A DNA stretch of 64,000 bases, taken from contig MKVQ01000010.1 of NCBI GenBank assembly GCA_001899635.1, positions 124,001 through 188,000 of the forward strand. The letters run 5' to 3'. This document shows positions 33,872-45,739 of the stretch, piece after piece (position 1 is the stretch's first letter; each line of letters opens with the position of its first letter). Both the position numbers and the translations under genes were made by a program. A model generated the notes under the pieces. That model made no database searches and was not told where the DNA came from. It saw only the letters and a program-made list of their open reading frames with translations. This stretch comes from Myxococcales bacterium 68-20 (GTDB lineage Bacteria > Myxococcota_A > Polyangia > Polyangiales > Polyangiaceae).

Positions 33872-34927
33872 GTGAGGTGGAGGACGCAAGGAGCTGTCTG
33901 GGCGGCTCTCCTCTGCATTGCGTGGTTGTTCGTCGCGAGTCCCGCGCACGCCGAGGCGGGCGTCGCGCTCTCTTGGCGGAGCGAGGGGGCGTCGCGGGCC
34001 TGCGGGAGCGAGTCGGCGATCCGCGAAGCCGTGGAGCGAAGGCTCGGCCGGCGACCCTTCACCGATCCGGATCACGCCAAGATCTGGATCACGGGCGAGG
34101 AGGTCGCGGTCGGGCGCGATCAGTTTCGTGCGCGCGTCACGCAGCGAGACCGCGACGGAGTGGCCAGCGGCTCGCGCGAGCTCGAACCTCAACCTTGCGC
34201 CAGCCTCGTGCGCGGCGCGGTGCTCATCATCTCCCTCTTCATCGATCGCGCCGAGCAACACGAGCCCGACGAGGCGGCGAAGAGCGAGCCGGTATCGCCG
34301 ATGGAGCCTGCGACGCGCACGGAGCCCGAAACACGTGCGCCGGTCATTCCGCCTCCACCCGCCGTCGTCTCCCCTCGAACGTCGACGAGGATCCGTGAAG
34401 CCCATCCTCCTGAGCTCTGGCTCGGCGCGGGGGCCGGCACTTCGATCGGTGTCCTCCCCTCCCTCGACGGCGCCTTCTTCGTTGCGGCTCGGCTGAACCC
34501 GTCGCGTTCGCGTTGGAGCTTCGAGTGGCGCGGCACGTACCACCTGCCGCAACGCATCGATGATCACCCCGTGGCCGGCGTCGTCTCCGCGGTCGATCAA
34601 CGGCTCAGTGTATGTCTGTCGCCGTTCAGCATCCCGATAGCGAAGCTCGATTTCTGCGGCGGCCTCACGTGGACGGCGGTGATTCCGCAGACCAAGGGGA
34701 CTTCGCAAGGCAATGAGCGCGCGCGCGCCGTCATTGGTCCAATGCTCGGTGTTGCGCTTCAGCTAGGCCAGCGGCCCCTGGTCGGTAGGCTCGAGCTCGG
34801 TGTGGCGCTGCCACATCGCCAGTATACATTTGTCTACACGGACCCGTACGGCGTCAAGAAGTCGTTCTATTCGACCGGGGAAGTGCTCTTCTTCGTATCA
34901 ATCGCCGGTCTCCGTACGATTTTGTAA
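33872..34927 (+). CDS. Exported protein, possible outer-membrane beta-barrel, first gene of sigma operon
   Basis: 351 residues. I start at the GTG at 33872, which gives a clean Sec signal (MRWRTQGAVWAALLCIAWLF ending near AHA). Residues 30-130 form an alpha/beta domain (REAVERRLGRRPF, KIWITGEEV); a Pro/Glu/Thr linker is at 145-185. Residues 185-351 are alternating amphipathic strands ending in a hydrophobic residue, as in an outer-membrane barrel. It lies 60 bases upstream of the ECF sigma gene and could be a surface sensor feeding the sigma/anti-sigma pair; this is inference from position. Confidence 0.72.
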   Translation: MRWRTQGAVWAALLCIAWLFVASPAHAEAGVALSWRSEGASRACGSESAIREAVERRLGRRPFTDPDHAKIWITGEEVAVGRDQFRARVTQRDRDGVASGSRELEPQPCASLVRGAVLIISLFIDRAEQHEPDEAAKSEPVSPMEPATRTEPETRAPVIPPPPAVVSPRTSTRIREAHPPELWLGAGAGTSIGVLPSLDGAFFVAARLNPSRSRWSFEWRGTYHLPQRIDDHPVAGVVSAVDQRLSVCLSPFSIPIAKLDFCGGLTWTAVIPQTKGTSQGNERARAVIGPMLGVALQLGQRPLVGRLELGVALPHRQYTFVYTDPYGVKKSFYSTGEVLFFVSIAGLRTIL

Positions 34928-34987
34928 GATTTCCGGCGCCGGTAGATCACAGCCCCTTTCGTGCTGCGCTGGTCCGGATCTTCCGTG

Positions 34988-35539
34988 GGTGCGGTAGACG
35001 AGCCTGCCGCCCTTCTTCCGTTGAATGACACGCTCGACCTAGCGACTCTCTTTCGAGAGTACAGGACCTTCGTCTACCGGATCATGCGCCGGCTGGGCGT
35101 GCGTCCTCCGGACGTCGACGACGCGTGCCAAGAGGTGTTCGTCGTCATCCACCAGAAGCTCGACCAGTTCGAGCACCGCTCATCGCTGCGCGCTTGGGTC
35201 TACGGAATCTGCGTGCGCGTCGCCGCGCGGCAGCGCCGGCGTCGTCATGTCACCCACGAGATCGTCTCTGACGACGCGCCCGAGCCCGTCGATCCGACGA
35301 CGCCGGCCGAGAAATTCAGCGTCATGGAAGCGTGCGAGATGCTCGAGTCGATCCTCTCGACTCTCGATGACGAGAAGAGAGCCGTGTTCGTGCTCTACGA
35401 GCTCGAAGAGCTGACCGTTCAAGAGGTCGCTCAGGCACTCGACTGTCCACTGCAGACCGCGTACTCGCGTCTGCGTGCTGCTCGTGAATTGGTCGAAGCG
35501 GCCGTTCGCCGCCACCTGCAGAAGGGGAGATTCCAATGA
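34988..35539 (+). CDS. ECF RNA polymerase sigma factor
   Basis: 183 residues. Sigma region 2 is clear (LATLFREYRTFVYRIMRRLG, then PPDVDDACQEVFVVIHQKL) and region 4 carries the HTH (LTVQEVAQALDCPLQTAYSRL). Group IV length, with no region 1 or 3. GTG at 34988 chosen; an in-frame GTG at 34961 would add nine residues. The TGA overlaps the next start (ATGA, 35536-35539), a common sign of a sigma/anti-sigma pair. It likely controls its own operon. Confidence 0.92.
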   Translation, partial: GAVDEPAALLPLNDTLDLATLFREYRTFVYRIMRRLGVRPPDVDDACQEVFVVIHQKLDQFEHRSSLRAWVYGICVRVAARQRRRRHVTHEIVSDDAPEPVDPTTPAEKFSVMEACEMLESILSTLDDEKRAVFVLYELEELTVQEVAQALDCPLQTAYSRLRAARELVEAAVRRHLQKGRFQ

Positions 35540-36273
35540 GTCGCGAGCCCCGTCGCTACACCGAGTCCGGGGAAGGCGCGTCGCCGGAGGCGGCCTTCAT
35601 GCATGCGCTCATCCGGACCGAGCGGACGGCTCTGCCCTCCGAGGAGCAATTGGCAAAGATCGAAGATCGACTCGGGCCGATCCTCACGCGCAGCCAAGCC
35701 AACGGGCGCGCCTCGTCCGGCATGCCGCTGCGGATGGCGCCCTTGGTGGCGGTGGCGGCCGTGGTGGCCCTCACGGCCGGCACCTTCGCGGTTCGGTCGC
35801 GTCCGGAACACGGTCCCCAATCGCAGGTCTCTGCGGTCGGCTCCTCGAACGGCACGGCGGAAGACCCGCGGCCAACGAAGCCACTGGAGCAGCCGACCTT
35901 CGAACCGAGCCGGCCGGTGACGACGACGCGTACGGTCGAGTCACTGCCGCCAGCGAGCGCAACGCCGCGGCCCAGTGCCGTCGCCAGTGCCGTCCGTCCG
36001 ACCTGCACGGACGAAGTGACGTTGCTCGAGCGCGCCGACGCCGCGCTCCGTTCGGGTGACGGTGCGGGCGCCCTGACGTTGACGAACGAGCACGCCGTGC
36101 GCTGCGCGACGGGCGCCTTCGTTCAAGAGCGTGAACGAATCGCGATTGAAGCGCTCGGCACCCTCGGTCGGTTCGAGGAGATGCGAGGTCGTGCGCGCGG
36201 ATTCGAAGATCGCTATCCGGCGTCGCCGCATATCCGGCATATCCGAAGAATCGTCGACGATTACTCGAAGTGA
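35536..36273 (+). CDS. Putative membrane anti-sigma factor
   Basis: 245 residues. A cytoplasmic N-terminal part of about 65 residues is followed by one membrane helix (LVAVAAVVALTAGTFAV, about residues 70-87), a Pro/Thr/Ser-rich periplasmic linker, and a C-terminal Cys-bearing helical domain (TLLERADAALRSGDGAGAL) like a small TPR module. It lacks the His-Cys-Cys zinc motif of ZAS anti-sigmas. Its role as partner of the ECF factor is inferred from the four-base overlap and single-pass topology. Confidence 0.75.
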   Translation: MSREPRRYTESGEGASPEAAFMHALIRTERTALPSEEQLAKIEDRLGPILTRSQANGRASSGMPLRMAPLVAVAAVVALTAGTFAVRSRPEHGPQSQVSAVGSSNGTAEDPRPTKPLEQPTFEPSRPVTTTRTVESLPPASATPRPSAVASAVRPTCTDEVTLLERADAALRSGDGAGALTLTNEHAVRCATGAFVQERERIAIEALGTLGRFEEMRGRARGFEDRYPASPHIRHIRRIVDDYSK

Positions 36274-36289
36274 GCAGAGGACGCTCCGA

Positions 36290-37498
36290 ATGAGAACATC
36301 CATTACCATCGCTCTTGCCACGCTCGCGCTCTTCATCGGCTGCGCCGCGCAGGAGGAGGTCTACCTCGGCGTGGCTCCACCGGCCGATCCGCCGTCGTTC
36401 ACCGGTGACGACGCCGCGACGCTCTCGCCGGAGGCTGGTCTCATGTCGTACTGCCCATCGAGCACCTGTCCTCCCGGATTCACGACCTGCCCGAACTCAC
36501 GGTTCCCGTGCGACATCAATCTGAGGACGGACCTGAGCAATTGTGGTGCATGTGGTGCTGCTTGCCCGACGCGCGACCTGGGGGCCGACTTCGCCTGTGT
36601 CGAAGGCAGCTGCGTGATGACGTGCACCACGGATGGCATTCCGAAACTGGACTGCGACGGCATCATCGACAACGGCTGCGAGGTCACGCTTGGAACCAAC
36701 GACAACTGTACGGGTTGCGGCGAGAAGTGCGAGGACCCGGAGAAGCCTTGCACGCGGCGCCGAGATGGGAAGCCGGGCTGCGGTTGCGGTGGTTCAGACG
36801 TCTATTGCCCCCTGAGCGGCGCCTGTGTGGATCTAAGGGACAACGATCAGAACTGCGGAGCCTGTGGCAATCAATGTGACCCGAGAAACGGAGGCGAGAG
36901 CACGCCTCCAAATGCATACTACGGCTGCATCAATGGCGAATGCGGACGTCTGAAGTGTTTCCCGACGTGGGCCGACTGTGATGGTGACCCGTCCAACGGA
37001 TGTGAGACGGATCTCTTCGATCCCAACAACTGTGCCGGCTGCGGCACTGTCTGCGACTCGACGGAAGGTTGTCAGGCCGACGAGTTCTATCAGCCTAGAT
37101 GCGTCATGTGTCCGGAAGGCGAAACGTACTGCCCTACGTCGTGCGGAATAGTCGTCAAGCCGGGGAGGAGCGTCTGTACCGGGGAATGTCGGAATCTGGC
37201 GACCGACCCTCAGAGCTGCGGCGCGTGCGGCTTTTCGTGCGGGCTCAAGCCTGACGGAGTGAGGCCTGTGGATTACGCATCACCGGTCTGTTCGTTTGGT
37301 TCGTGCGATTTTGCGTGCGACCAAGGTCGCGCTGATTGCAACGGCAATCAGAGTGATGGCTGTGAAGTGGATACGAACAGCGATCCGCGAAATTGCGGAG
37401 GATGCCGAATCGAATGCAACGCTGTCGCCGGCCAAGCGTGCGTCGGCGGGCGATGTGTCGTCGAACCGTGCGAGACCGACGGAGGCATCACGCGATGA
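36290..37498 (+). CDS. Cys-rich repeat lipoprotein
   Basis: 402 residues. Start at 36290 has AGAGGACG upstream and opens a lipoprotein signal (lipobox LFIGC). The mature part has about 50 cysteines in repeats of the type DLSNCGACGAACP, DNDQNCGACGNQCD and DPQSCGACGFSCG, alternating with GCEVT/GCETD segments. This disulfide-rich pattern recurs in myxobacterial surface proteins. No enzyme motif. Translationally coupled to the next gene (ATGA). Confidence 0.82.
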   Translation: MRTSITIALATLALFIGCAAQEEVYLGVAPPADPPSFTGDDAATLSPEAGLMSYCPSSTCPPGFTTCPNSRFPCDINLRTDLSNCGACGAACPTRDLGADFACVEGSCVMTCTTDGIPKLDCDGIIDNGCEVTLGTNDNCTGCGEKCEDPEKPCTRRRDGKPGCGCGGSDVYCPLSGACVDLRDNDQNCGACGNQCDPRNGGESTPPNAYYGCINGECGRLKCFPTWADCDGDPSNGCETDLFDPNNCAGCGTVCDSTEGCQADEFYQPRCVMCPEGETYCPTSCGIVVKPGRSVCTGECRNLATDPQSCGACGFSCGLKPDGVRPVDYASPVCSFGSCDFACDQGRADCNGNQSDGCEVDTNSDPRNCGGCRIECNAVAGQACVGGRCVVEPCETDGGITR

Positions 37499-38688
37499 AA
37501 CTCGAATCGGTCATCGTCATCCTTGCACCCGTTGCGTGTGTGTGCGCAGCTCTCGGCGGATGCGCGTCGGACGCGAGCACCAGCCTGACGGACGACCCCG
37601 ACGCGACGACGGTCGCGCCTCCTGCACCGGACGCAGGCGCCGATGTCGATGCCGCGGACGCAGGGCCGTGTGTCGACTGCGAGTACTTTCCCACGACATG
37701 CTCGTCGGACACGCTTTGCCCGAATGGGCCCTTCGAACCGAACACAGCGGGGGGCGCGTTCGACCTGCGGACGCGCATCAACGCGATCGTCGGCCGTTCG
37801 GCAAACGATGTCTGGGCCATCGGCGCGCTCGGAGCGGTCGCGCACTTCGACGGGGCTTCGTGGTCGCGAGTAGATACGAGCTCGGTCGACACGATGCGCG
37901 CGCTCTGGCTGCGCGACTCATCGGAGGTCCTCGTGGCCACTCCTGTCAGAGCGTACGCCCGCGGCATCGGGCACGAAGACTGGAGGCGCTACGAAGCCGA
38001 TACGGACTACCCGCCTCGTGGCTATGACCCGGAGGGGATGAAGTTCACGTCCGGCTGGGCCGCGCCGGGCGGAGACTCTCTCTGGTGCGCTACGATGGCC
38101 TGGACTCCCGGTGTGGCGAGTGGCTTGTGGCGCCTTCGCCTCGCAGCGTCCGGAGATCGATTCGAGCTCATCGATGGCGTTCCTGCCGGTACGTGCGAGC
38201 GTGTTCCGTGCAGCCAGATCTCCGCCATCCACGGGACCTCGCCGAACGACATCTGGGCGGTGGGCGTTGCGGGATCGATGGTTCATCTCACGAACGCGGA
38301 GAGTGACTCACCGAACGTGACGCGGATCAGCACGCGAACATGGCAATCGTTCTACGGCGTCTGGGCGGCCTCCGAAACCGAGGCGTGGGCCGTCGGCAAC
38401 GCCGGCGTGATTCGTCACTATACGGGCGATCCGCTCGCCGAAGACTTCATCTCGGACGTCTCCGAGACCATCAATCTCAATGCAGTTGCGGGCACGTCGA
38501 GCTCCGATGTATGGGCGGTCGGCGACGCTGGCGTCGTCTTGCACTACGACGGCAAGAGCTGGTCGCGCATGAGCGTGGCCGGGCTCGGCGGTCGTCGCCC
38601 TGACCTCACGGCCGTGTGGATGTCCGGCCCGGGGAAACCCTGGATCGGCGGGCAGGGCGTCGTTCTCTCCCTCGGAGGAAGGCAATGA
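37495..38688 (+). CDS. VWAVG-repeat (propeller-like) lipoprotein A
   Basis: 397 residues. Start at 37495 overlaps the previous stop; signal ends in lipobox LGGC. After an Asp/Ala-rich linker with two Cys pairs, residues 100-397 contain at least five blades of the form NDVWAIGALGAVAHFDGASW / NDIWAVGVAGSMVHL / SDVWAVGDAGVVLHYDG, as in exported photosystem-assembly-like or BNR-type propellers. Probably a ligand- or surface-binding protein. Coupled by ATGA overlap to the next gene. Confidence 0.82.
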   Translation: MKLESVIVILAPVACVCAALGGCASDASTSLTDDPDATTVAPPAPDAGADVDAADAGPCVDCEYFPTTCSSDTLCPNGPFEPNTAGGAFDLRTRINAIVGRSANDVWAIGALGAVAHFDGASWSRVDTSSVDTMRALWLRDSSEVLVATPVRAYARGIGHEDWRRYEADTDYPPRGYDPEGMKFTSGWAAPGGDSLWCATMAWTPGVASGLWRLRLAASGDRFELIDGVPAGTCERVPCSQISAIHGTSPNDIWAVGVAGSMVHLTNAESDSPNVTRISTRTWQSFYGVWAASETEAWAVGNAGVIRHYTGDPLAEDFISDVSETINLNAVAGTSSSDVWAVGDAGVVLHYDGKSWSRMSVAGLGGRRPDLTAVWMSGPGKPWIGGQGVVLSLGGRQ

Positions 38689-39968
38689 GGCGCAGTCTTC
38701 GAATCGCATCTGTGGTCACTACGCTTGCCGCCGCCGCGTGTGCAGCGGTCGGTGAAGAGGGAAGCTCCCCGGATCCGGGGCCGTCGACCGTCGACGCCTC
38801 GACCATCGACGCCTCGACCATCGACGCCTCGACGGTCGACGATGGTGGGCTCACGAGCGACGACACGTGTAGCAAGGATGGTTGGTGCAAGACCACGTTG
38901 CCGGATGTCGATCTCTCGATACAAGACATCTGGCCCTTGAAAGGGCGCGCGTTCGCGATCGCGGCGAGCGCCGTCAATGGAATCAAGGTTCTCGAATGGG
39001 ACGACTCTGTCGCGGAGTGGGTGTATATCGATGATGGGTCTCAGAATGAGGCGGGCGTCGGCGACTCCATAGCCAAGATCTGGGCGCCGAACGACAGCGA
39101 GGTCTATTATGCCGTCGCACCAAGCTCGTCTCGGAACTCGCCGCGAGCATCGTACATCTACCATGGAACGCGGAGCTCGAAGTCTCCTGCGTCGTGGACG
39201 TGGACGCGCTCCCTGTTCTCCCCTCCAGTGGGAAGTCCGGCCATCCGGTACAACCCTGCCACGGTGTTCGGTGTTTGGGGCGTCGGGGGTGATGTTTACG
39301 CATGGTACGTAAATACGGTCTTCCGACTGAGGGGAAGTCCTGGTGCGCCGGAGTGGGTGCCCGAGTACACACTCGACGGGGGGGAGGACACGATGTTCCT
39401 CTTCGGTGTGAACGGTACGAGTCGCGACGATCTCTGGTTGGTGGGAGCGCGAAAGCGCGATTGGGAGCAATGTGACGTCATCGTTCACAAGACGGCTGCC
39501 GGATATCGTACCGTCACCGATGGCACGCTCGCGGATCCAGACGGCAACACCGTCCCGTGTGAGGTCGGATCGGGACTAATCGAAATAGGCGGATACGGCG
39601 ACTTGTCGTCCGTCCAGTCGCCATCGGTAGGCGAGATCTTCTCCATCAAGGGAGCCGACATCGCGCGGATCGCGCGGGGGAAGGATGGTGATTACTCGGT
39701 TCATTGGTCGAGCCCATCTGTTGCAGTCGCGTCAGCCTCTTGGCTATCGGTCTGGGCGCCGTCGACCACCGAGACGTGGCTCAGCGGATACGGCATTATC
39801 GTTCGCGGGAGCAATTTTGGCGTAGACGGGGGCACGTACGAGGTCTCGTCGATCGCGTTGAACGGTGCGCCGCTCCGTCGGCAGTTCTATCAAGTGCGAG
39901 GAACATCCAGTGCCAACCTTTGGGCGGTCGGAGAGGGCTATGCGCTTCACAAGTCGTCTTCTAAGTAG
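38685..39968 (+). CDS. VWAVG-repeat (propeller-like) lipoprotein B
   Basis: 427 residues. Start at 38685 overlaps the previous stop. Signal MRRSLRIASVVTTLAAAAC with lipobox. The linker is made of (I/V)DAST pentapeptide repeats encoded by a 15-base tandem repeat. Residues 60-427 hold weaker blades of the same family (NDSEVYYAV, TVFGVWGVGGDVYAWY, ANLWAVGEGYALHKS). A divergent relative of the preceding protein, likely by duplication. Overlaps the next gene by 29 bases. Confidence 0.8.
   Translation: MRRSLRIASVVTTLAAAACAAVGEEGSSPDPGPSTVDASTIDASTIDASTVDDGGLTSDDTCSKDGWCKTTLPDVDLSIQDIWPLKGRAFAIAASAVNGIKVLEWDDSVAEWVYIDDGSQNEAGVGDSIAKIWAPNDSEVYYAVAPSSSRNSPRASYIYHGTRSSKSPASWTWTRSLFSPPVGSPAIRYNPATVFGVWGVGGDVYAWYVNTVFRLRGSPGAPEWVPEYTLDGGEDTMFLFGVNGTSRDDLWLVGARKRDWEQCDVIVHKTAAGYRTVTDGTLADPDGNTVPCEVGSGLIEIGGYGDLSSVQSPSVGEIFSIKGADIARIARGKDGDYSVHWSSPSVAVASASWLSVWAPSTTETWLSGYGIIVRGSNFGVDGGTYEVSSIALNGAPLRRQFYQVRGTSSANLWAVGEGYALHKSSSK
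38791..38835 (+). repeat. 15-base tandem repeat in coding sequence
   Basis: Three copies of TCGACGCCTCGACCA (last ends GG), encoding the pentapeptide DAST(I/V). In-frame unit length means copy changes alter linker length without a frameshift. Confidence 0.85.
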
Positions 39969-41313
39969 AGGACTCCTGCCTGCGCCCTTCGTTGCGTTCG
40001 GGCTCGTCTTCAGCTGCTCGAGTGGAGACGACGAACGCACGAGCTTCGTGTCGCCCGACGCGGATGTGGACGCTGCTCAGGAGTCGGATTCATCGAACGA
40101 CGCTGGGGCGGCGAACGATGCAGGACCGCCCCGACGTGACGCGGAACCGTTCGATGCGGCGCCGTTGCCAGTCGTCTGCGCGTCGCCGGCGTGCGCGACG
40201 TCGTTGACGACGACCTCGGTCAACGGAAGCACGCAGGACGGGTTCTGCGCGCTCCTCCGTGACGGCACCGTAGCGTGCTGGGGTGGAAACCGCTCTGGTG
40301 AGCTCGGGCGGGGAGCGGCTGCTGGCGTCGATCCGAGCGGCACCCCCGAGCGGGTCGTTGGTCTCACCGATATCGTCGCGATCGACCACACATGTGCTCT
40401 CGACAAGGATGGTGCGATGTGGTGCTGGGGCTACGGTCCGTTCCTCAATAGAGAATCCCCGCGGTACGAGCGGCGCGCCAATTCGACCGAGGTCACGCCG
40501 CTGAAGCTGCCGATCCCGCCAGCGACGAAGATGGCGCTGGGGCCGTTCGCTGCGTGCGCGGTGGTCGCGGAGGGCGTTCTGTGTTGGGGAGCGAATTACT
40601 ATGGGCAGCTCTCGGCTACCGCCCCTGTGTATTCCGAGGCCCCGCTCGAGCCAAGTCTAGTCGCACTACCTCCCGGCGCCCCAATCCGGGACCTCTTCAT
40701 CGGCAACGCGTCGTTCGTGGTGCGCGAGGACGGTACGACCGTGAGCTGGGGTGATAACCCTCCGCTCGGGCGGGTTTCGCCGGTCACCCCGGACCATGTT
40801 CCCGAGCCCATGGATCTCTCGAATATATCATATATCGACGTGGCTGGCGCCAACGCGTGCGCCGTCGCCGGAGGCATTCCCTACTGCTGGGGAGTCGTCA
40901 CCGGAAAGCGTCCCGGTATGTCGCAGCCGGCCAATAAGTCGCTCGATCGTGCTTTGCCCGAACCGGTCGTCGTCCCGGAGCCTGTCCTTCGGATCGCGAC
41001 GACGGCGGCCGTCGAGAACCATGTTACCGTCTCGGCACCACGGTGGTGTGCATGTGGTGCCTCGGGTGCGGTCTATTGCTGGGGAAATAACGTCTACGGT
41101 CAGGTCGGTGACGGAACGAAGGACTATGCGTTCGAAGCCGTGAAGGTGCCATTGCCGGGGCCCGCCGCGCAGGTGAAGACGACCGTCGATACGACGTGCG
41201 CTCTCCTGACGAGCGGTGATGTCTACTGTTGGGGCGCAGACACTTACGGCCAGCTCGGCGCCGGAACGCTCAAGCAAGGACGTCGTACCCCACAGAAGGT
41301 GCTATTGCCATGA
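39940..41313 (+). CDS. RCC1-like repeat lipoprotein
   Basis: 457 residues. ATG at 39940 lies inside the end of the previous gene; signal ends in lipobox LVFSC. After an Asp/Ala-rich linker, the body has seven-bladed RCC1-type repeats: GTVACWGGNRSGELGRG, GAMWCWGYG, GVLCWGANYYGQLS, VYCWGNNVYGQVGDGT and VYCWGADTYGQLGAGT. Each blade carries a conserved Cys-Trp-Gly, a form common in secreted bacterial RCC1 proteins. Overlaps the next gene by four bases. Confidence 0.87.
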   Translation: MRFTSRLLSRGLLPAPFVAFGLVFSCSSGDDERTSFVSPDADVDAAQESDSSNDAGAANDAGPPRRDAEPFDAAPLPVVCASPACATSLTTTSVNGSTQDGFCALLRDGTVACWGGNRSGELGRGAAAGVDPSGTPERVVGLTDIVAIDHTCALDKDGAMWCWGYGPFLNRESPRYERRANSTEVTPLKLPIPPATKMALGPFAACAVVAEGVLCWGANYYGQLSATAPVYSEAPLEPSLVALPPGAPIRDLFIGNASFVVREDGTTVSWGDNPPLGRVSPVTPDHVPEPMDLSNISYIDVAGANACAVAGGIPYCWGVVTGKRPGMSQPANKSLDRALPEPVVVPEPVLRIATTAAVENHVTVSAPRWCACGASGAVYCWGNNVYGQVGDGTKDYAFEAVKVPLPGPAAQVKTTVDTTCALLTSGDVYCWGADTYGQLGAGTLKQGRRTPQKVLLP

Positions 41314-43127
41314 GTCTTCGACGGATGTTGGGTGGTCATGGCGCGGGCGTCGTGGCTCTCCTGGTTACCTTCCTCTGCGCCGGTGCGTGCGGAGAACAAC
41401 GAGACGGTTTTACCAATAGGGGAGGCGTCTTCAGTCCCGACTCCTCTGCGCCGGCCGAACCCGAGTGCGGATTGCGGTGCTCGCTGGATGGCCGGTCGGT
41501 CATCGAGGCGTGCACCGGCAGCGTGGTGGAGACCTGTCCGCCGGAGCTCGCCTGCGGCGGTGCTTCTTGCCAGGAGCCGTGCGCGGCTGCCGCTGCGGAT
41601 CGACGGTCGAGCGGTTGTGAATTCTATCTGCAACCCCCGCGCTTCTCGAAGGCGTTCACCCAGTCTTGTTATGCGGCGTACATCGTCAACGTGTCGAGTC
41701 AGGAGGTCGACCTCGCGCTCGAGCTCGAAGGAAGCTCGCTCGACTTGTCGCGGGCGCTGTTCAAGTCCTCGTCGGATGGCGGCCAGTTGGTTCCGCTGAG
41801 CGGGCCGATTCTCCCCGGAGAGCACGCGATCCTGTTCGTCTCCGATCGCGATCCGAGCGTTCCGTTGTCGTTCGGGCCGTTCTCGAATCAGTACGCACCC
41901 TGCCCGCTCGGCGTCGTCCCGGCATCGTACGTCGACGTCGTCCCCGACGGCACCGGTGTCGGCTCCTCGTTCCGGTTGTCCGCGAAGACGCCGGTGGCGG
42001 TCTCGACGATGTACCCATTCGGTGGTGCGCCGAGCGTCGTTCCTACTGCCACGCTGCTCTTGCCTGTCACTACGTGGGCGAAGGAGCATGTCGTCATCAA
42101 TGCTTGGGAAGGCTATTTCGATCCCTACTACCGAGCGTGGCCCGCTTCGCAAATCATGGCGGCCGAGGACGATACCGAGATCACGATCTTTCCGACACGT
42201 GACATTCAAAACGGGCCCGGTGTGGTGGGCACGGCGGCGCGCGTGCCCGTTACGTACCGCCTGAACAAGGGCCAGCACCTGCAGCTCGTGCAGTATGACG
42301 AGCTCTCCGGAAGCCAGGTCGCATCCAACAAGCCGACGGCCATGATCGGTGGCCACACGTGTTCGCAGATGCCGACGGGACGCGGACCCTGCGACATCAT
42401 GGCGCAACAGATCCCGCCGTTCGAGCAATGGGGATCCGAATACGTCGGGGTTGGCTACCGTCCACGCATGGGCGGTGAGAACGAGGTGATGCCCTACCGC
42501 ATCGTAGCTGCGCGGGACGGCACTCAGCTCGATTACGACCCTGCCATACCCGCCGGCGCCCCGACCATCATGTCGGCTGGTGAAGTCGTCACGTTCGTCT
42601 CCCGGGATCCGTTCGTCGTCCGCACCCAGGACGTGGAGCATCCGGTCTACCTCGCCGCGTACATGTCTGGTTCGATCGCGAGGTCTGGCGACGACATGTT
42701 GGGCGACATCGACTTCGGCGGCCGCGGCGACCCCGAGTTCGTGAACGTCGTTCCGACCGGCCAGTATCTGAACGCGTACAGCTTCTACGCCGATCCGAGC
42801 TACGGGGATAGCTCGCTCGTGATCGTGAGAGGCAAGATTCAGGGTGAGTTCAAGGACGTCTGGGTCGAATGCGCCGGTAGCCTGCCCGAGTTCAAACCTG
42901 TCGGAACGCGCGGCGACTACGAGTACGCCCGCGTCGATCTCTCCGTCCGCGGACGCCCGGGCGACACGTTCGGCGCGAGCACCTGTCGGCCCGGCGTCCA
43001 GCGAATGCACAGCGAGGGCCCCTTCGGTGCGACCATCTGGGGCTGGGATACCTATGCAAGCTATGCGTATCCCGGTGGTATGGCGCTGCGAAAGCTCGTG
43101 ACGCAGCCGCTGGTGCCGCTCCGCTAG
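41310..43127 (+). CDS. IgGFc-binding-like lipoprotein
   Basis: 605 residues. Start at 41310 overlaps the previous stop (ATGA). Signal ends in GAC lipobox. Residues 40-100 are Cys-rich (CGLRCSLDGRSV, CGGASCQEPC). Residues 110-600 resemble the IgGFc-binding N-terminal domain of FCGBP-like proteins: TWAKEHVVINAWEG, ASQIMAAEDDTEITIFPTRD, KPTAMIGGHTC, VTFVSRDPFVV and HPVYLAAYMSG. In bacteria these are surface proteins, possibly adhesins. It is last in the unit that begins at 33872; a 14-bp hairpin follows. Confidence 0.83.
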   Translation: MSLRRMLGGHGAGVVALLVTFLCAGACGEQRDGFTNRGGVFSPDSSAPAEPECGLRCSLDGRSVIEACTGSVVETCPPELACGGASCQEPCAAAAADRRSSGCEFYLQPPRFSKAFTQSCYAAYIVNVSSQEVDLALELEGSSLDLSRALFKSSSDGGQLVPLSGPILPGEHAILFVSDRDPSVPLSFGPFSNQYAPCPLGVVPASYVDVVPDGTGVGSSFRLSAKTPVAVSTMYPFGGAPSVVPTATLLLPVTTWAKEHVVINAWEGYFDPYYRAWPASQIMAAEDDTEITIFPTRDIQNGPGVVGTAARVPVTYRLNKGQHLQLVQYDELSGSQVASNKPTAMIGGHTCSQMPTGRGPCDIMAQQIPPFEQWGSEYVGVGYRPRMGGENEVMPYRIVAARDGTQLDYDPAIPAGAPTIMSAGEVVTFVSRDPFVVRTQDVEHPVYLAAYMSGSIARSGDDMLGDIDFGGRGDPEFVNVVPTGQYLNAYSFYADPSYGDSSLVIVRGKIQGEFKDVWVECAGSLPEFKPVGTRGDYEYARVDLSVRGRPGDTFGASTCRPGVQRMHSEGPFGATIWGWDTYASYAYPGGMALRKLVTQPLVPLR

Positions 43128-43276
43128 CGCGCGGACGAGCCGGCCCCCAAAGAGCGAGGTCGCGGCTCGGTCGCACGTGCTGGTGGATGAGGGCGAGGGT
43201 CGTTGATGGCGACCCGCGCTTGCCCTGACGGAATGCGCAGACTGGCGCAGTCCGCGCGAGCTGCTCCTCCTCCTAC

Positions 43277-43317
43277 GGCTTGGAGAGGCGCTCGGCCCAG
43301 TCCCGCCTCTCCAAGCC
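43277..43317. terminator. Terminator-like hairpin after the sigma operon
   Basis: Perfect 14-bp stem (GGCTTGGAGAGGCG, 43277-43290, pairing with CGCCTCTCCAAGCC, 43304-43317) with a 13-base loop. No T-run follows. It lies 150 bases after the IgGFc-binding-like gene. Confidence 0.6.
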
Positions 43318-43460
43318 AGCTTCGTGACGCCCTCGACGCGGCTCGCGCTCGTCGTCCCGCCCTTCAGCAGTCGTCCCATTCGCCAGGAAGGCTCGCGACG
43401 AAAGTGCACCTCGGTGCGCCGTCGGTACCCGACGGAGCTGCCGCCTCGGCCCGACGTGCG

Positions 43461-43466
43461 TATAGT
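43461..43466 (+). promoter_or_regulatory. -10-like element of the fibro-slime gene
   Basis: TATAGT lies eight bases upstream of the ATG at 43474, predicting a leaderless or near-leaderless transcript. The -35 region (CTGCCG, 17 bases upstream) is weak. Confidence 0.4.
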
Positions 43467-43473
43467 CTGCGGC

Positions 43474-44484
43474 ATGAGTTTCAATCGCTCGAGCCTGCTG
43501 GCTGGCGTCGCCGGTGTGCTCTCCATGGTGGCCGCGTACGCGTGTGGCGATTCGGCGAAGGGCTCCAAGTTCGACGACGGCAGCGCAGATGGGGGGAGAA
43601 GCGGCAGCTCGAGCGGCGATCTCGGACCGGGCAACTCCGTCGACGGCGGCGGCGGCGACGAGACCGGCGGCGGTCCGCCGGTCGGCACGCTCGAGGCGAT
43701 CATCCGTGACTTCAAGCGGTACGACGTCAACGACGCCAAGACGAACCCGGACTTCGAGAACGTGCCGAGCGACGCCGAGCGGCCGGACGGCGGAGCGCTT
43801 CCGTACTACGGGCCGTGGACCGAGGCGACGGAGGCCTACTACCCGGGCGCGGACTACGCGATCGACATCGTCCTCCCCACGCTCGGTGCCGACGGCAAGC
43901 CGCAGTACAACACGGCCGCTTCGTTCAACGGCATCCCCGGCAGGACCGCGACGACGCACGGCAGGACGTTCTTCGATCAGTGGTATCGCGATACGCCGGG
44001 CGTCAACGTCGTCCGCAAGGTGCTCATCACGCTCACGAAGGACGCGAACGGCGTCTACTCGTACGACAGCGCCGTCTCCGGCGTCCCGCTCTCGGCCGCG
44101 AATCCGTCGAAGAACTTCTTCCCGATCGACGACGGAACGCCGGCATCGACGGCCGCCGACGGTTTCGGCAACCAGGGCGAGGCGCACAACTATCACTTCA
44201 CGGTCGAGCTCCACACGAAGTTCCGCTACCGGGGCGTCGAGACGTTCAAGTTCAGCGGAGACGACGACGTCTTCGTCTTCATCAACAAGCAGCTGGTGAT
44301 CAACATCGGTGGCATCCACTCCGCGCTCACGCGCGAGGTGAACCTGCCGGCGTTGGCTTCGGCGCTCGGCCTCGTGGTGGGGGAGGAGTACCCGCTCGAC
44401 TTCTTCCAGGCGGAGCGTCACGTCGAGGAATCGAACCTCCGGATCGAGACGACGATCGAGCTCAGGCCCGACGTCGTGAAGTGA
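43474..44484 (+). CDS. Fibro-slime-domain lipoprotein
   Basis: 336 residues. Start at 43474 gives a signal with lipobox AYAC. A Ser/Gly/Asp-rich linker runs to about residue 70. Residues 70-336 form a fibro-slime-type domain: GTLEAIIRDFKRYD, FDQWYRDTPGVN, FTVELHTKFRYRG, FSGDDDVFVFINKQLVINIGG and YPLDFFQAERHVEESNLRI. The DDDVFVFIN pattern is the hallmark shared with Dictyostelium prespore and Fibrobacter slime proteins; it likely binds carbohydrate or Ca2+. Exported or surface. Confidence 0.88.
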   Translation: MSFNRSSLLAGVAGVLSMVAAYACGDSAKGSKFDDGSADGGRSGSSSGDLGPGNSVDGGGGDETGGGPPVGTLEAIIRDFKRYDVNDAKTNPDFENVPSDAERPDGGALPYYGPWTEATEAYYPGADYAIDIVLPTLGADGKPQYNTAASFNGIPGRTATTHGRTFFDQWYRDTPGVNVVRKVLITLTKDANGVYSYDSAVSGVPLSAANPSKNFFPIDDGTPASTAADGFGNQGEAHNYHFTVELHTKFRYRGVETFKFSGDDDVFVFINKQLVINIGGIHSALTREVNLPALASALGLVVGEEYPLDFFQAERHVEESNLRIETTIELRPDVVK

Positions 44485-44767: not shown

Positions 44768-45739
44768 ATGGTCCAAGTCGATCAGCTGCTGAAGAAGAAC
44801 TTCTGGATCGTGATCCTTCCTCTGATCGCGATCGCTGCGCTGCTCAACGCGCAGGCGGTGACGCAGCTGATCGGGATCGGTCTCGGTCCGGACGAGAAGG
44901 CGCTCTCCGCGCCGCCGCCCGTCGCCAAGGTCGCGCCCGCATCCAGGACGTCGGCGCGCAATCCGAGCGCGGAGGCGATCCTCAATCGCAACCCGTTCGA
45001 TCACGTCACGGGATCGCTGAAGCCGCCGCCCGTATCCGACGAGGACGGCACCACCTCCTCGCCGTCTGGGCCGCTCGACACGAGCGATCCGGCGAGCGCA
45101 CCGAAGTGCGACGGCGTGAAGGTGCTCATCATCGCGGCATCGAGCGATCCGGAGTGGTCGTTCGCGGCCTTCGGCGGCGCGGACGGCAAGAGCCTCATGC
45201 GCCGTCGCGGCGGTGACGTGAGCGGCAAGCGGGTCGAGTACGTCGGCTGGGATCGAGTGTGGCTCGACAACGGTGGCTCGCTCTGCCAGGCGACGCTGTT
45301 CGACAAGGCCGAGGTGAAGGCTCCCGCTGCCGCGCCGGCGCCGGTGGCGTCCACACCAAGCGCCGCTGGCAGCAAGACCCTCGATCCCGCGATCGCCAAA
45401 GGCATCCAGAAGGTGAGCGCGAACGAGTACAACGTCGACCGCGGCGTCGTGGACAAGATCCTCGAGAACCAGGCCGATCTGATGCGCCAGGCGCGGATCG
45501 TCCCCGAGCAGGAGAACGGACGCGTCGTCGGCATCCGCCTGTTCGGCGTTCGCAACGACACGCTGCTCGGCGTGCTCGGCATGGAGAACGGCGACCGCCT
45601 CCAGACGATCAACGGCTTCGACATGGCGAGCCCGGAGAAGGCGCTCGAGGCCTACGCGCGGCTCCGCACCGCGGACAAGCTGACGATCAGCCTGAACCGC
45701 AAGGGCCAGAACATGAACATCGACTACAACATCAAGTGA
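44768..45739 (+). CDS. gspC: Type II secretion inner-membrane protein GspC
   Basis: 323 residues. Cytoplasmic N-terminus, one membrane helix (about 11-33), Pro/Ala linker, an RNPFD motif at about residues 73-77 that opens the homology region contacting the secretin N0 domain, and a C-terminal PDZ-like domain (about 225-322: VVGIRLFGVRNDTLLGVLG, GDRLQTINGFDM). GspC links the inner-membrane platform to GspD and helps recruit substrate. First gene of the cluster. Confidence 0.92.
   Translation: MVQVDQLLKKNFWIVILPLIAIAALLNAQAVTQLIGIGLGPDEKALSAPPPVAKVAPASRTSARNPSAEAILNRNPFDHVTGSLKPPPVSDEDGTTSSPSGPLDTSDPASAPKCDGVKVLIIAASSDPEWSFAAFGGADGKSLMRRRGGDVSGKRVEYVGWDRVWLDNGGSLCQATLFDKAEVKAPAAAPAPVASTPSAAGSKTLDPAIAKGIQKVSANEYNVDRGVVDKILENQADLMRQARIVPEQENGRVVGIRLFGVRNDTLLGVLGMENGDRLQTINGFDMASPEKALEAYARLRTADKLTISLNRKGQNMNIDYNIK

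Follow-up and report, generated by a model that had tools for sequence, protein, structure and literature searches.

The locus described here lies at positions 33872–43127 of a 64,000-nucleotide window (the whole stretch of DNA that was analysed) on contig MKVQ01000010.1 of Myxococcales bacterium 68-20 (GCA_001899635.1). A first-pass annotation of this DNA had placed eight consecutive genes there in one orientation, and all eight were found in place on the + strand. They are named BAR (barrel-like protein), SIG (extracytoplasmic function, ECF, sigma factor), ASF (anti-sigma factor) and CYS, PRO1, PRO2, RCC1 and IGG (lipoproteins). The first three make up a regulator cassette, or switch, and the other five a cargo cassette. 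The window copy is one of more than one hundred paralogous copies in the same genome, in which the histories of the two cassettes appear to be largely decoupled. The features of the locus are:

33872..34927, + strand: BAR, regulator cassette; signal peptide, TolB-N-like N-domain with two invariant Cys, Pro-rich linker and C-terminal beta-rich region (probable small outer-membrane barrel)
34961..35539, + strand: SIG, regulator cassette; ECF sigma factor with regions 2 and 4, GTG start
35536..36273, + strand: ASF, regulator cassette; putative anti-sigma factor with a short N-terminal part, one transmembrane segment, a Pro-rich linker and a C-terminal TPR/BamD-like domain
36290..37498, + strand: CYS, cargo cassette; Cys-rich lipoprotein (NF041328 match, Cys columns)
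36290..36460, + strand: 5' end of CYS, which encodes the signal peptide and the beginning of the mature protein; the zone where history switches from regulator to cargo; measured on paralogous copies, so that the window coordinates are approximate
37495..38688, + strand: PRO1, cargo cassette; lipoprotein with a Ycf48-like beta-propeller (profile of 16 copies)
38685..39968, + strand: PRO2, cargo cassette; lipoprotein with a propeller related to PRO1
39940..41313, + strand: RCC1, cargo cassette; RCC1-repeat propeller lipoprotein (PF13540, 4.9e-28)
41310..43127, + strand: IGG, cargo cassette; IgGFc-binding-domain lipoprotein (PF17517, 6.8e-101)

SIG and ASF overlap by ATGA in window coordinates, as had been noted before, and the four lipoprotein junctions, described earlier as overlapping by 4–29 bases, were measured as 4, 4, 29 and 4 bases.

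The operon is repeated throughout the genome, which comprises 11,892,454 bases (11.9 Mb) in 52 contigs and is 98.4% complete with a contamination estimate of 4.2%. The best 150 candidates were scored in each search, out of 311 for ASF, 165 for BAR, 170 for IGG and 162 for CYS, and copy counts are lower bounds because no more than 150 candidates were scored. Matches number at least 116 for ASF (E<=1), at least 29 for BAR (E<=1) and at least 142 for IGG (E<=1e-5). The 140 stretches around the matches were merged with the window into 120 segments (1.96 Mb), which were scanned in six frames with eight family profiles built from the copies; genes were called by a simple codon-score caller with a preference for starts that give a signal peptide or lipobox, and the starts are approximate. 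At least 142 clusters were obtained. The seven genes SIG-ASF-CYS-PRO-PRO-RCC1-IGG stand in this order on one strand in at least 114 of them, and all eight genes, with BAR, in at least 99, the window copy being included in both counts. Gene order recurs far beyond chance. The 114 seven-gene clusters sum to 1,058,117 bp (1.06 Mb), or 8.9% of the genome, while the clusters with at least CYS to IGG number at least 122, cover 1,115,337 bp on 35 contigs and are divided between the two strands (64 on + and 58 on -).

The copies have diverged deeply. Median pairwise identity is 20% for BAR, 33% for SIG, 26% for ASF, 40% for CYS, 30% for PRO1, 24% for PRO2, 32% for RCC1 and 40% for IGG; the median identity to the nearest neighbour is 45–69% by gene, and the highest pairwise identity among the 114 copies is 61–90% by gene, with no near-identical pair. 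The operon copies are old. Four BAR-SIG-ASF clusters have no cargo on the same strand (C3:234678, C10:107031, C17:7605 and C44:198776), and the first three may drive other genes. Short remnants of IGG are found at C38:44359-44562, C23:209643-209900 and C48:255582-255997, the last with one inside stop; they suggest that copies decay and that the repertoire therefore turns over.

The histories of the two cassettes were compared in the 99 complete operons. Correlations (rho) between the identity matrices of the genes are.31–.42 within BAR/SIG/ASF and.72–.84 within CYS to IGG, and lie between -.06 and.06 across the two halves. The same nearest neighbour is shared in 47–54% of operons within the regulator, in 46–62% within the cargo and in 2–10% between them, where chance gives 1%. 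The regulator and cargo trees have 1 of 57 supported splits in common and the other 56 are contradicted (shuffled labels give a mean of 0.06 and a maximum of 2), as against 23 of 42 in common and 5 contradicted for SIG versus BAR+ASF, and 44 of 60 in common and 10 contradicted for PRO1+RCC1 versus PRO2+IGG. Neighbours on the chromosome within 25 kb (32 pairs) resemble each other in cargo (identity.483 vs.380, reached in 0 of 2000 permutations), while their regulator identity is.285 vs.277 (p 0.18). None of the 27 pairs with cargo identity of at least.70 has a regulator identity of.40 or more. From the 24 pairs with IGG identity above 78%, 14 were examined, and all of them combine close cargo (dS ~0.2–0.6, dS and dN being synonymous and nonsynonymous divergence) with unrelated regulators (dN 0.60–1.06, near saturation). 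Regulator and cargo thus appear to have largely decoupled histories, with repeated re-pairing like that of interchangeable cassettes.

The two cassettes meet within the 5' part of CYS. Two tandem sets of three supplied four pairs in which the DNA is 74–84% similar from 144–171 bp inside the CYS match to 0–23 bp beyond the IGG match (in one pair as two separate pieces), and no similarity in the same register was found over BAR-SIG-ASF in these four pairs. The first 40 columns of CYS follow the regulator weakly (.16 vs.01), columns 20–60 already follow the cargo (.56), and so do all later windows (.29–.67). The reverse pattern is seen in the pair C33_28m/C43_678m, which is 77% similar from BAR to ~430 bp into CYS, with weaker cargo similarity after that. 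The pair C40_479m/C48_535m is similar almost throughout and joined in both trees, and is the best candidate for a duplication of the whole operon. The earlier description of the locus as one regulated module affecting the cell surface holds as far as a module with conserved order is concerned (114 clusters); that it is a single module does not, as there are more than 100 paralogous operons with largely separate histories of their halves.

SIG (192 amino acids) matches Sigma70_r2 (PF04542, 1.9e-12) and Sigma70_r4_2 (PF08281, 9.4e-11), both over the cut-off, and TIGR02937 (2.1e-23), which bears out its assignment as an ECF sigma factor. The sigma recognition-helix segments of the 114 copies are all different from one another; insulation would need such differences, but general divergence alone could produce them.

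ASF is taken as an anti-sigma factor from its gene position and topology. Domain scans of single copies gave no family for the window ASF or the window BAR. A hydrophobic helix, defined on hydropathy only as a 19-residue stretch with a mean of at least 1.6, is present in 102 of the 114 copies with a median start at residue 49 of the matched region, and the exact -4 overlap with SIG occurs in 44 of the 89 copies with both genes called; the one-span topology and the coupling to SIG fit the putative single-pass anti-sigma factor proposed earlier. The usual zinc motif, HxxxCxxC, had been reported as lacking and is present in 0 of 114 copies, on which ground a zinc anti-sigma identity was dropped. 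Scans of 24 copies (E<=0.05) gave TPR_14 in nine and YfiO in eight.

BAR is a protein of ~350 residues with two Cys that are invariant in the N-domain in an alignment of 24 copies. An AlphaFold2 model made from two sequences covered the N-domain only, the C-part being unmodelled there. Over residues ~30–130 its blocks have a predicted local-distance difference test score (pLDDT) of 63–82, and it resembles the N-terminal domain of TolB (Z 10.1, root-mean-square deviation 3.1, 103 residues), while also scoring Z 7–9 to CsgG, PelC and ribosome hibernation factors. The C-part shows strong beta periodicity (z 19.7 vs shuffles, taken over the final 165 residues in 99 related copies). Searching PDB sequences with the BAR profile gave weak matches only, the best one in the Pro-rich linker.

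The five cargo proteins had been described as lipoproteins with different folds. The RCC1 and IGG domains were recovered by Pfam, as RCC1_2 (PF13540, 96.6 bits vs a cut-off of 22) and IgGFc_binding (PF17517, 337.9 bits vs 25.6). The propeller of PRO1 was recovered by the profile of 16 copies, which matches the Ycf48-like propellers 5ojr_A (4.2e-9) and 2xbg_A (4.6e-9) in the PDB, and PSII_BNR is present in 5 of these 16 copies; window PRO1 or PRO2 alone has no Pfam hit above the cut-off. The hidden Markov models of PRO1 and PRO2 each recover 255 proteins, about twice one family, and the two are named by position because they are related and their profile recoveries overlap. CYS matches NF041328 (MXAN_6577-like Cys-rich protein) at 1.1e-16 with 61 bits, under the model cut-off of 100, and on this match is related to the family without being a member by its cut-off rule. 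Its copies contain 49–57 Cys each (n=114).

Lipoboxes were found in 79 of 108 CYS, 94 of 113 PRO1, 99 of 106 PRO2, 83 of 94 RCC1 and 102 of 111 IGG copies (73–93%), rates that are inflated by the gene caller, with its preference for starts of this kind. The residue after the lipobox Cys is usually Ala, Ser, Gly or Thr. Columns that are at least 95% constant belong to the scaffold, being Cys in 51 of 69 cases in CYS, Trp or Gly in 16 of 26 in PRO1 and Gly, Cys or Trp in 27 of 29 in RCC1, while PRO2 has only 7 such columns; most alignment columns are variable. The exact -4 overlap recurs in 59–80% of copies at three cargo joints (CYS/PRO1 90 of 112, PRO1/PRO2 89 of 112, RCC1/IGG 65 of 111). The median dN/dS of the cargo is 0.35–0.52 by gene in the 14 examined pairs, which share members and are not independent, and there is no inside stop in 141 of 142 IGG matches. 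By these substitution ratios, selection on the cargo is purifying without being tight.

The synteny in relatives that had been proposed as a test was found: four same-genus genomes yielded 15 regions, of which 9 carry the full set of eight genes in order. The other six same-genus regions comprise three incomplete ones (in one, only the five cargo genes were called, and two are cut off where the contig stops), two with a rearrangement and one with IGG alone; five regions from other genera contain IGG without the operon. In L204 and L210 the regulator is nearest to the own-genome copy C40_495p and the cargo to C27_4p, as also in L213 except for RCC1, and other regions are mixed. In an order-wide search with the best 10 candidates scored per genome, CYS as a marker of the cargo (E<=1e-30) gave matches in 7 of the 12 genomes that belong to the genus and in 0 of the 171 remaining genomes of the order (7 of 183 overall). 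At E<=1e-10 the 12 same-genus genomes have at least 150 CYS matches (own genome, best 150 of 162), then 42, 13, 4, 3, 3, 3, 1, 0, 0, 0 and 0. The IgGFc domain is spread wider than the operon, occurring in 32 of 38 relatives and in 0 of 14 control genomes.

The switch extends beyond the genus. Of the 41 genomes of the family, 39 (the own genome included) have a match to the ASF profile, built from 24 copies. In 18 chosen ASF-match regions from 12 genomes of the family, BAR-SIG-ASF were called in order in 13 and at least BAR and SIG in 16; the next gene after the switch encodes a Cys-rich lipoprotein in 5 of the 13, and three of ten downstream proteins that were scanned have a Pfam family. The switch cassette is thus family-wide, with other downstream genes elsewhere. 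On the tree of SIG+ASF (139 tips), switches of the operon family and of other genera are interspersed, with 10 changes of at most 13, a result made weak by the depth of the branches. At L229:8782-10050, in another genus, the gene behind the switch codes for a glycosyl hydrolase of family 8 (GH8) with a signal-peptide-like start, a possible lead to what some switches sense. Three genomes of other genera (G114, G121 and G165), which are not among the seven CYS genomes, contain 28–36 ASF-profile matches each, so that large switch repertoires are not unique to the genus.

Beyond IGG the window continues with genes that lie outside the repeated unit. A fibro-slime lipoprotein gene on the same strand (43474–44484, TIGR02148) starts 346 bp past IGG and directly precedes type II secretion genes, with gspC at 44768 (NF041515) and more from 46011 on. 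No terminator-like site was found in 43100–43500, between IGG and the fibro-slime gene. The codon scores of the fibro-slime gene are better than those of the operon genes, which lie far below those of their neighbours over 33872–43127, with slightly lower G+C in places; low scores of this kind are expected of fast-evolving or lineage-specific genes.

The locus is one copy of a greatly amplified two-cassette operon, and the family probably serves as a stock of surface lipoprotein complexes that can each be switched on its own, through signalling like that of FecA-FecR-FecI. BAR-SIG-ASF would act as a transenvelope switch, in which BAR is placed in the outer membrane with its N-domain in the periplasm, and ASF crosses the inner membrane, exposes its TPR-like domain to the periplasm and keeps SIG bound. 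A ligand or contact outside would be sensed by BAR and relayed to ASF, upon which SIG would be freed to transcribe the operon. Mature CYS, PRO1, PRO2, RCC1 and IGG would then be made together and would probably form one complex displayed on the surface, in which the scaffold is constant and the faces vary. In the course of evolution cargo cassettes have come to lie behind different switches, the cargo perhaps being the half that moved, such that the closest cargo copies now have unrelated switches and the genome would hold more than 100 separately addressable surface complexes. These may serve to bind prey or substrates, or in recognition between cells.

Several observations count against this proposal. 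The prediction that the switch controls its own operon is affected by the promoter regions: no shared ECF promoter was found upstream of BAR, nor any dyad, before BAR or before SIG, that the whole set of copies shares. Ahead of CYS the strongest dyads include ribosome-site-like sequences, and the dyads located between BAR and SIG could be the ends of coding sequences. TANNNT is overrepresented in the 90 bp before the BAR start (19, 23 and 28 per 30-bp bin vs 4–11 further up), while TA[GA][AC]N[TC] occurs at 15–90 bp in only 31 of 98 BAR upstream regions, with no -35 partner; this excess without an ECF promoter is suggestive of a housekeeping promoter, so that autoregulation stays a supposition. 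The median gap of 93.5 bp between BAR and SIG (76 pairs) implies that BAR may not always be co-transcribed with SIG. The switch is adjacent to, yet divergent from, the CYS to IGG strand in L200:2661-11743 (a metagenome-assembled genome of Labilithrix), in L212:628-9904 and in the own genome at C44:191793-201317 (C44_191m/C44_198p), and switch and cargo cannot be one transcript there. Two joints are looser than the others, with the exact -4 overlap in 25 of 110 copies at PRO2/RCC1 and in 20 of 92 at ASF/CYS.

The predicted parts of the switch and the separation of histories meet difficulties as well. The match of the ASF C-terminal domain to BamD in a profile comparison is weak (E.003), and the next hit (E.01) is an unrelated protein. 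The C-part of BAR, when modelled alone, gives 10 strands and no helix with a mean pLDDT of only 36.8, which leaves the probable barrel fold unconfirmed by the model. A BAR that sensed its own cargo should perhaps have co-evolved with it, yet there is almost no sign of this. Some coupling between the halves remains: the Mantel r is.049 (p.029), a cross-tabulation of regulator and cargo clusters yields p.031, the 40 pairs with SIG identity of at least 65% have a cargo identity of.47 vs.38, and 6 pairs combine cargo of at least.60 with regulator of at least.45, where 2.4 are expected. Between species, L201 matches one own-genome copy (C19_123m) best for all eight genes.

A tentative extension of the two-cassette proposal is a combinatorial system of surface identity, in which one or a few complexes would be made at a time. 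It would consist of more than 100 orthogonal, possibly self-sustaining ECF switches with one five-protein complex each. A new cargo copy would survive only behind a switch without cross-talk to that of its parent, hence the reassortment of cassettes at a fixed joint in the signal-peptide region of CYS.

It is unlikely, in our judgement, that the operons form a substrate-capture repertoire like the polysaccharide loci of Bacteroides, with one polymer per operon sensed by BAR. Such a reading shares the logic of many surface loci led by sigma and anti-sigma factors, and the GH8 glycosidase gene behind the other-genus switch in L229 would suit it. No SusC, SusD, transporter or glycosidase family was found among the eight window proteins, and an identity as a polysaccharide utilization locus was dropped for the want of SusC/D. 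The decoupling of the sensor from the binder is moreover the opposite of what a ligand-matched pair needs.

The sharp ends of similarity just past IGG and inside CYS, the likeness of tandem neighbours in cargo and the occurrence of cargo behind switches of several lineages (the 10 changes mentioned above) would also be consistent with a cargo that is mainly selfish or conversion-prone and spreads by ectopic recombination, the switches being bystanders and most copies unexpressed or unneeded; the IGG fragments point the same way. The 5' limit of the similarity is inside a coding sequence, unlike a transposon end, and transposon-borne cargo was dropped for this reason (transposases were not searched for). 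Selection acts on the product, as judged by the 141 of 142 intact IGG frames, the cargo dN/dS, the order kept in 114 clusters and the 51 columns of CYS kept as Cys in at least 95% of copies, which makes this explanation rather improbable. A repertoire for cell-cell or kin recognition, with sets of lipoproteins as lineage labels, is about equally doubtful. It would fit the strongly different copy numbers between same-genus genomes (at least 150 in the own genome, then 42 and 13) and the variable columns on constant scaffolds, but more than 100 sets per genome exceed what a label needs, and we know of no recognition protein (TraA and similar) in the unit.

A single conserved envelope-remodelling operon with no repertoire logic, which is how the window copy looks when taken alone, is refuted as a complete description by the 114 seven-gene clusters and is very improbable. 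Inflation of the count by strains or contaminants, through an artefact of assembly or binning, is hardly credible: the 52 contigs and the contamination estimate would allow it, but the absence of near-identical copies among the 114, on which ground it was dropped, the presence of several copies per contig, tandem sets included, and the 42 and 13 CYS matches in two same-genus genomes speak against it.

Large paralogous surface repertoires are known in the PE/PPE proteins of mycobacteria and in the variant surface antigens of parasites, where they consist of single genes or pairs. The present family is like these in that a single surface family takes up a considerable part of the genome and combines constant scaffolds with variable faces, and differs from them in being an eight-gene operon with its own switch per copy.

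The proposed topology of BAR, ASF and SIG, derived from sequence and models, is like that of FecA-FecR-FecI, which, in the excerpted text of the source, comprises an outer-membrane protein with a periplasmic N-terminal domain, a single-span anti-sigma factor with a periplasmic C-domain and an ECF sigma factor (PMC9249621). The transcription of fecIR is given there as being under sigma70, which is comparable to the TANNNT excess at BAR. Unlike in that system, no TonB-dependent receptor, plug or STN family was found in 24 BAR copies (one unrelated family occurs in 1 of the 24), and FecR is absent among the 13 families listed for 24 ASF copies (E<=0.05). BAR has instead a TolB-N-like N-domain and ASF a TPR/BamD-like C-domain, and the presumed targets are five lipoproteins rather than a transporter.

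The logic of multicopy surface loci led by ECF factors is already known from Bacteroides, for which the excerpted text of PMC3878776 lists 26 sigma/anti-sigma systems linked with the use of sugars, along with 101 SusC/D pairs and 88 loci, and describes the anti-sigma factor as contacting a specific SusC-like porin. The present operons resemble these in that there are many paralogous surface loci per genome, in Bacteroides some of them beside their own ECF/anti-sigma pair; they differ from what that text describes in having no SusC/SusD and no enzymes in the unit, and in their >100 copies, fixed order and unlinked histories. Many sigma factors and paralogs are a trait shared with other Polyangiaceae, such as S. 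cellulosum So0157-2 with 109 sigma factors (PMC3696898) and M. rosea with 44% paralogs (PMC8436480), and the excerpted text of these two papers mentions no repeated operon of this kind. In the open-access literature, no description was found of the composition and scale of the operon and the unlinking of its switch and cargo, or of a three-gene switch made of a TolB-N-like barrel protein, an ECF factor and a TPR anti-sigma factor, consistent with the earlier remark that no named system has this composition.

About 9% of a large genome is spent on one eight-gene operon design, and the keeping of its order through deep divergence implies that selection for a surface repertoire with many members has been strong and is still going on. 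The analysis defines a family-wide three-gene switch, and the more than 100 diverged pairs of ECF sigma and putative anti-sigma factors in one cell offer a natural experiment on the insulation of paralogous sigma factors that is directly testable. If the one-at-a-time system were true, it would amount to a bacterial version of singular receptor or antigen choice, achieved via sigma factors and not by DNA inversion or silencing.

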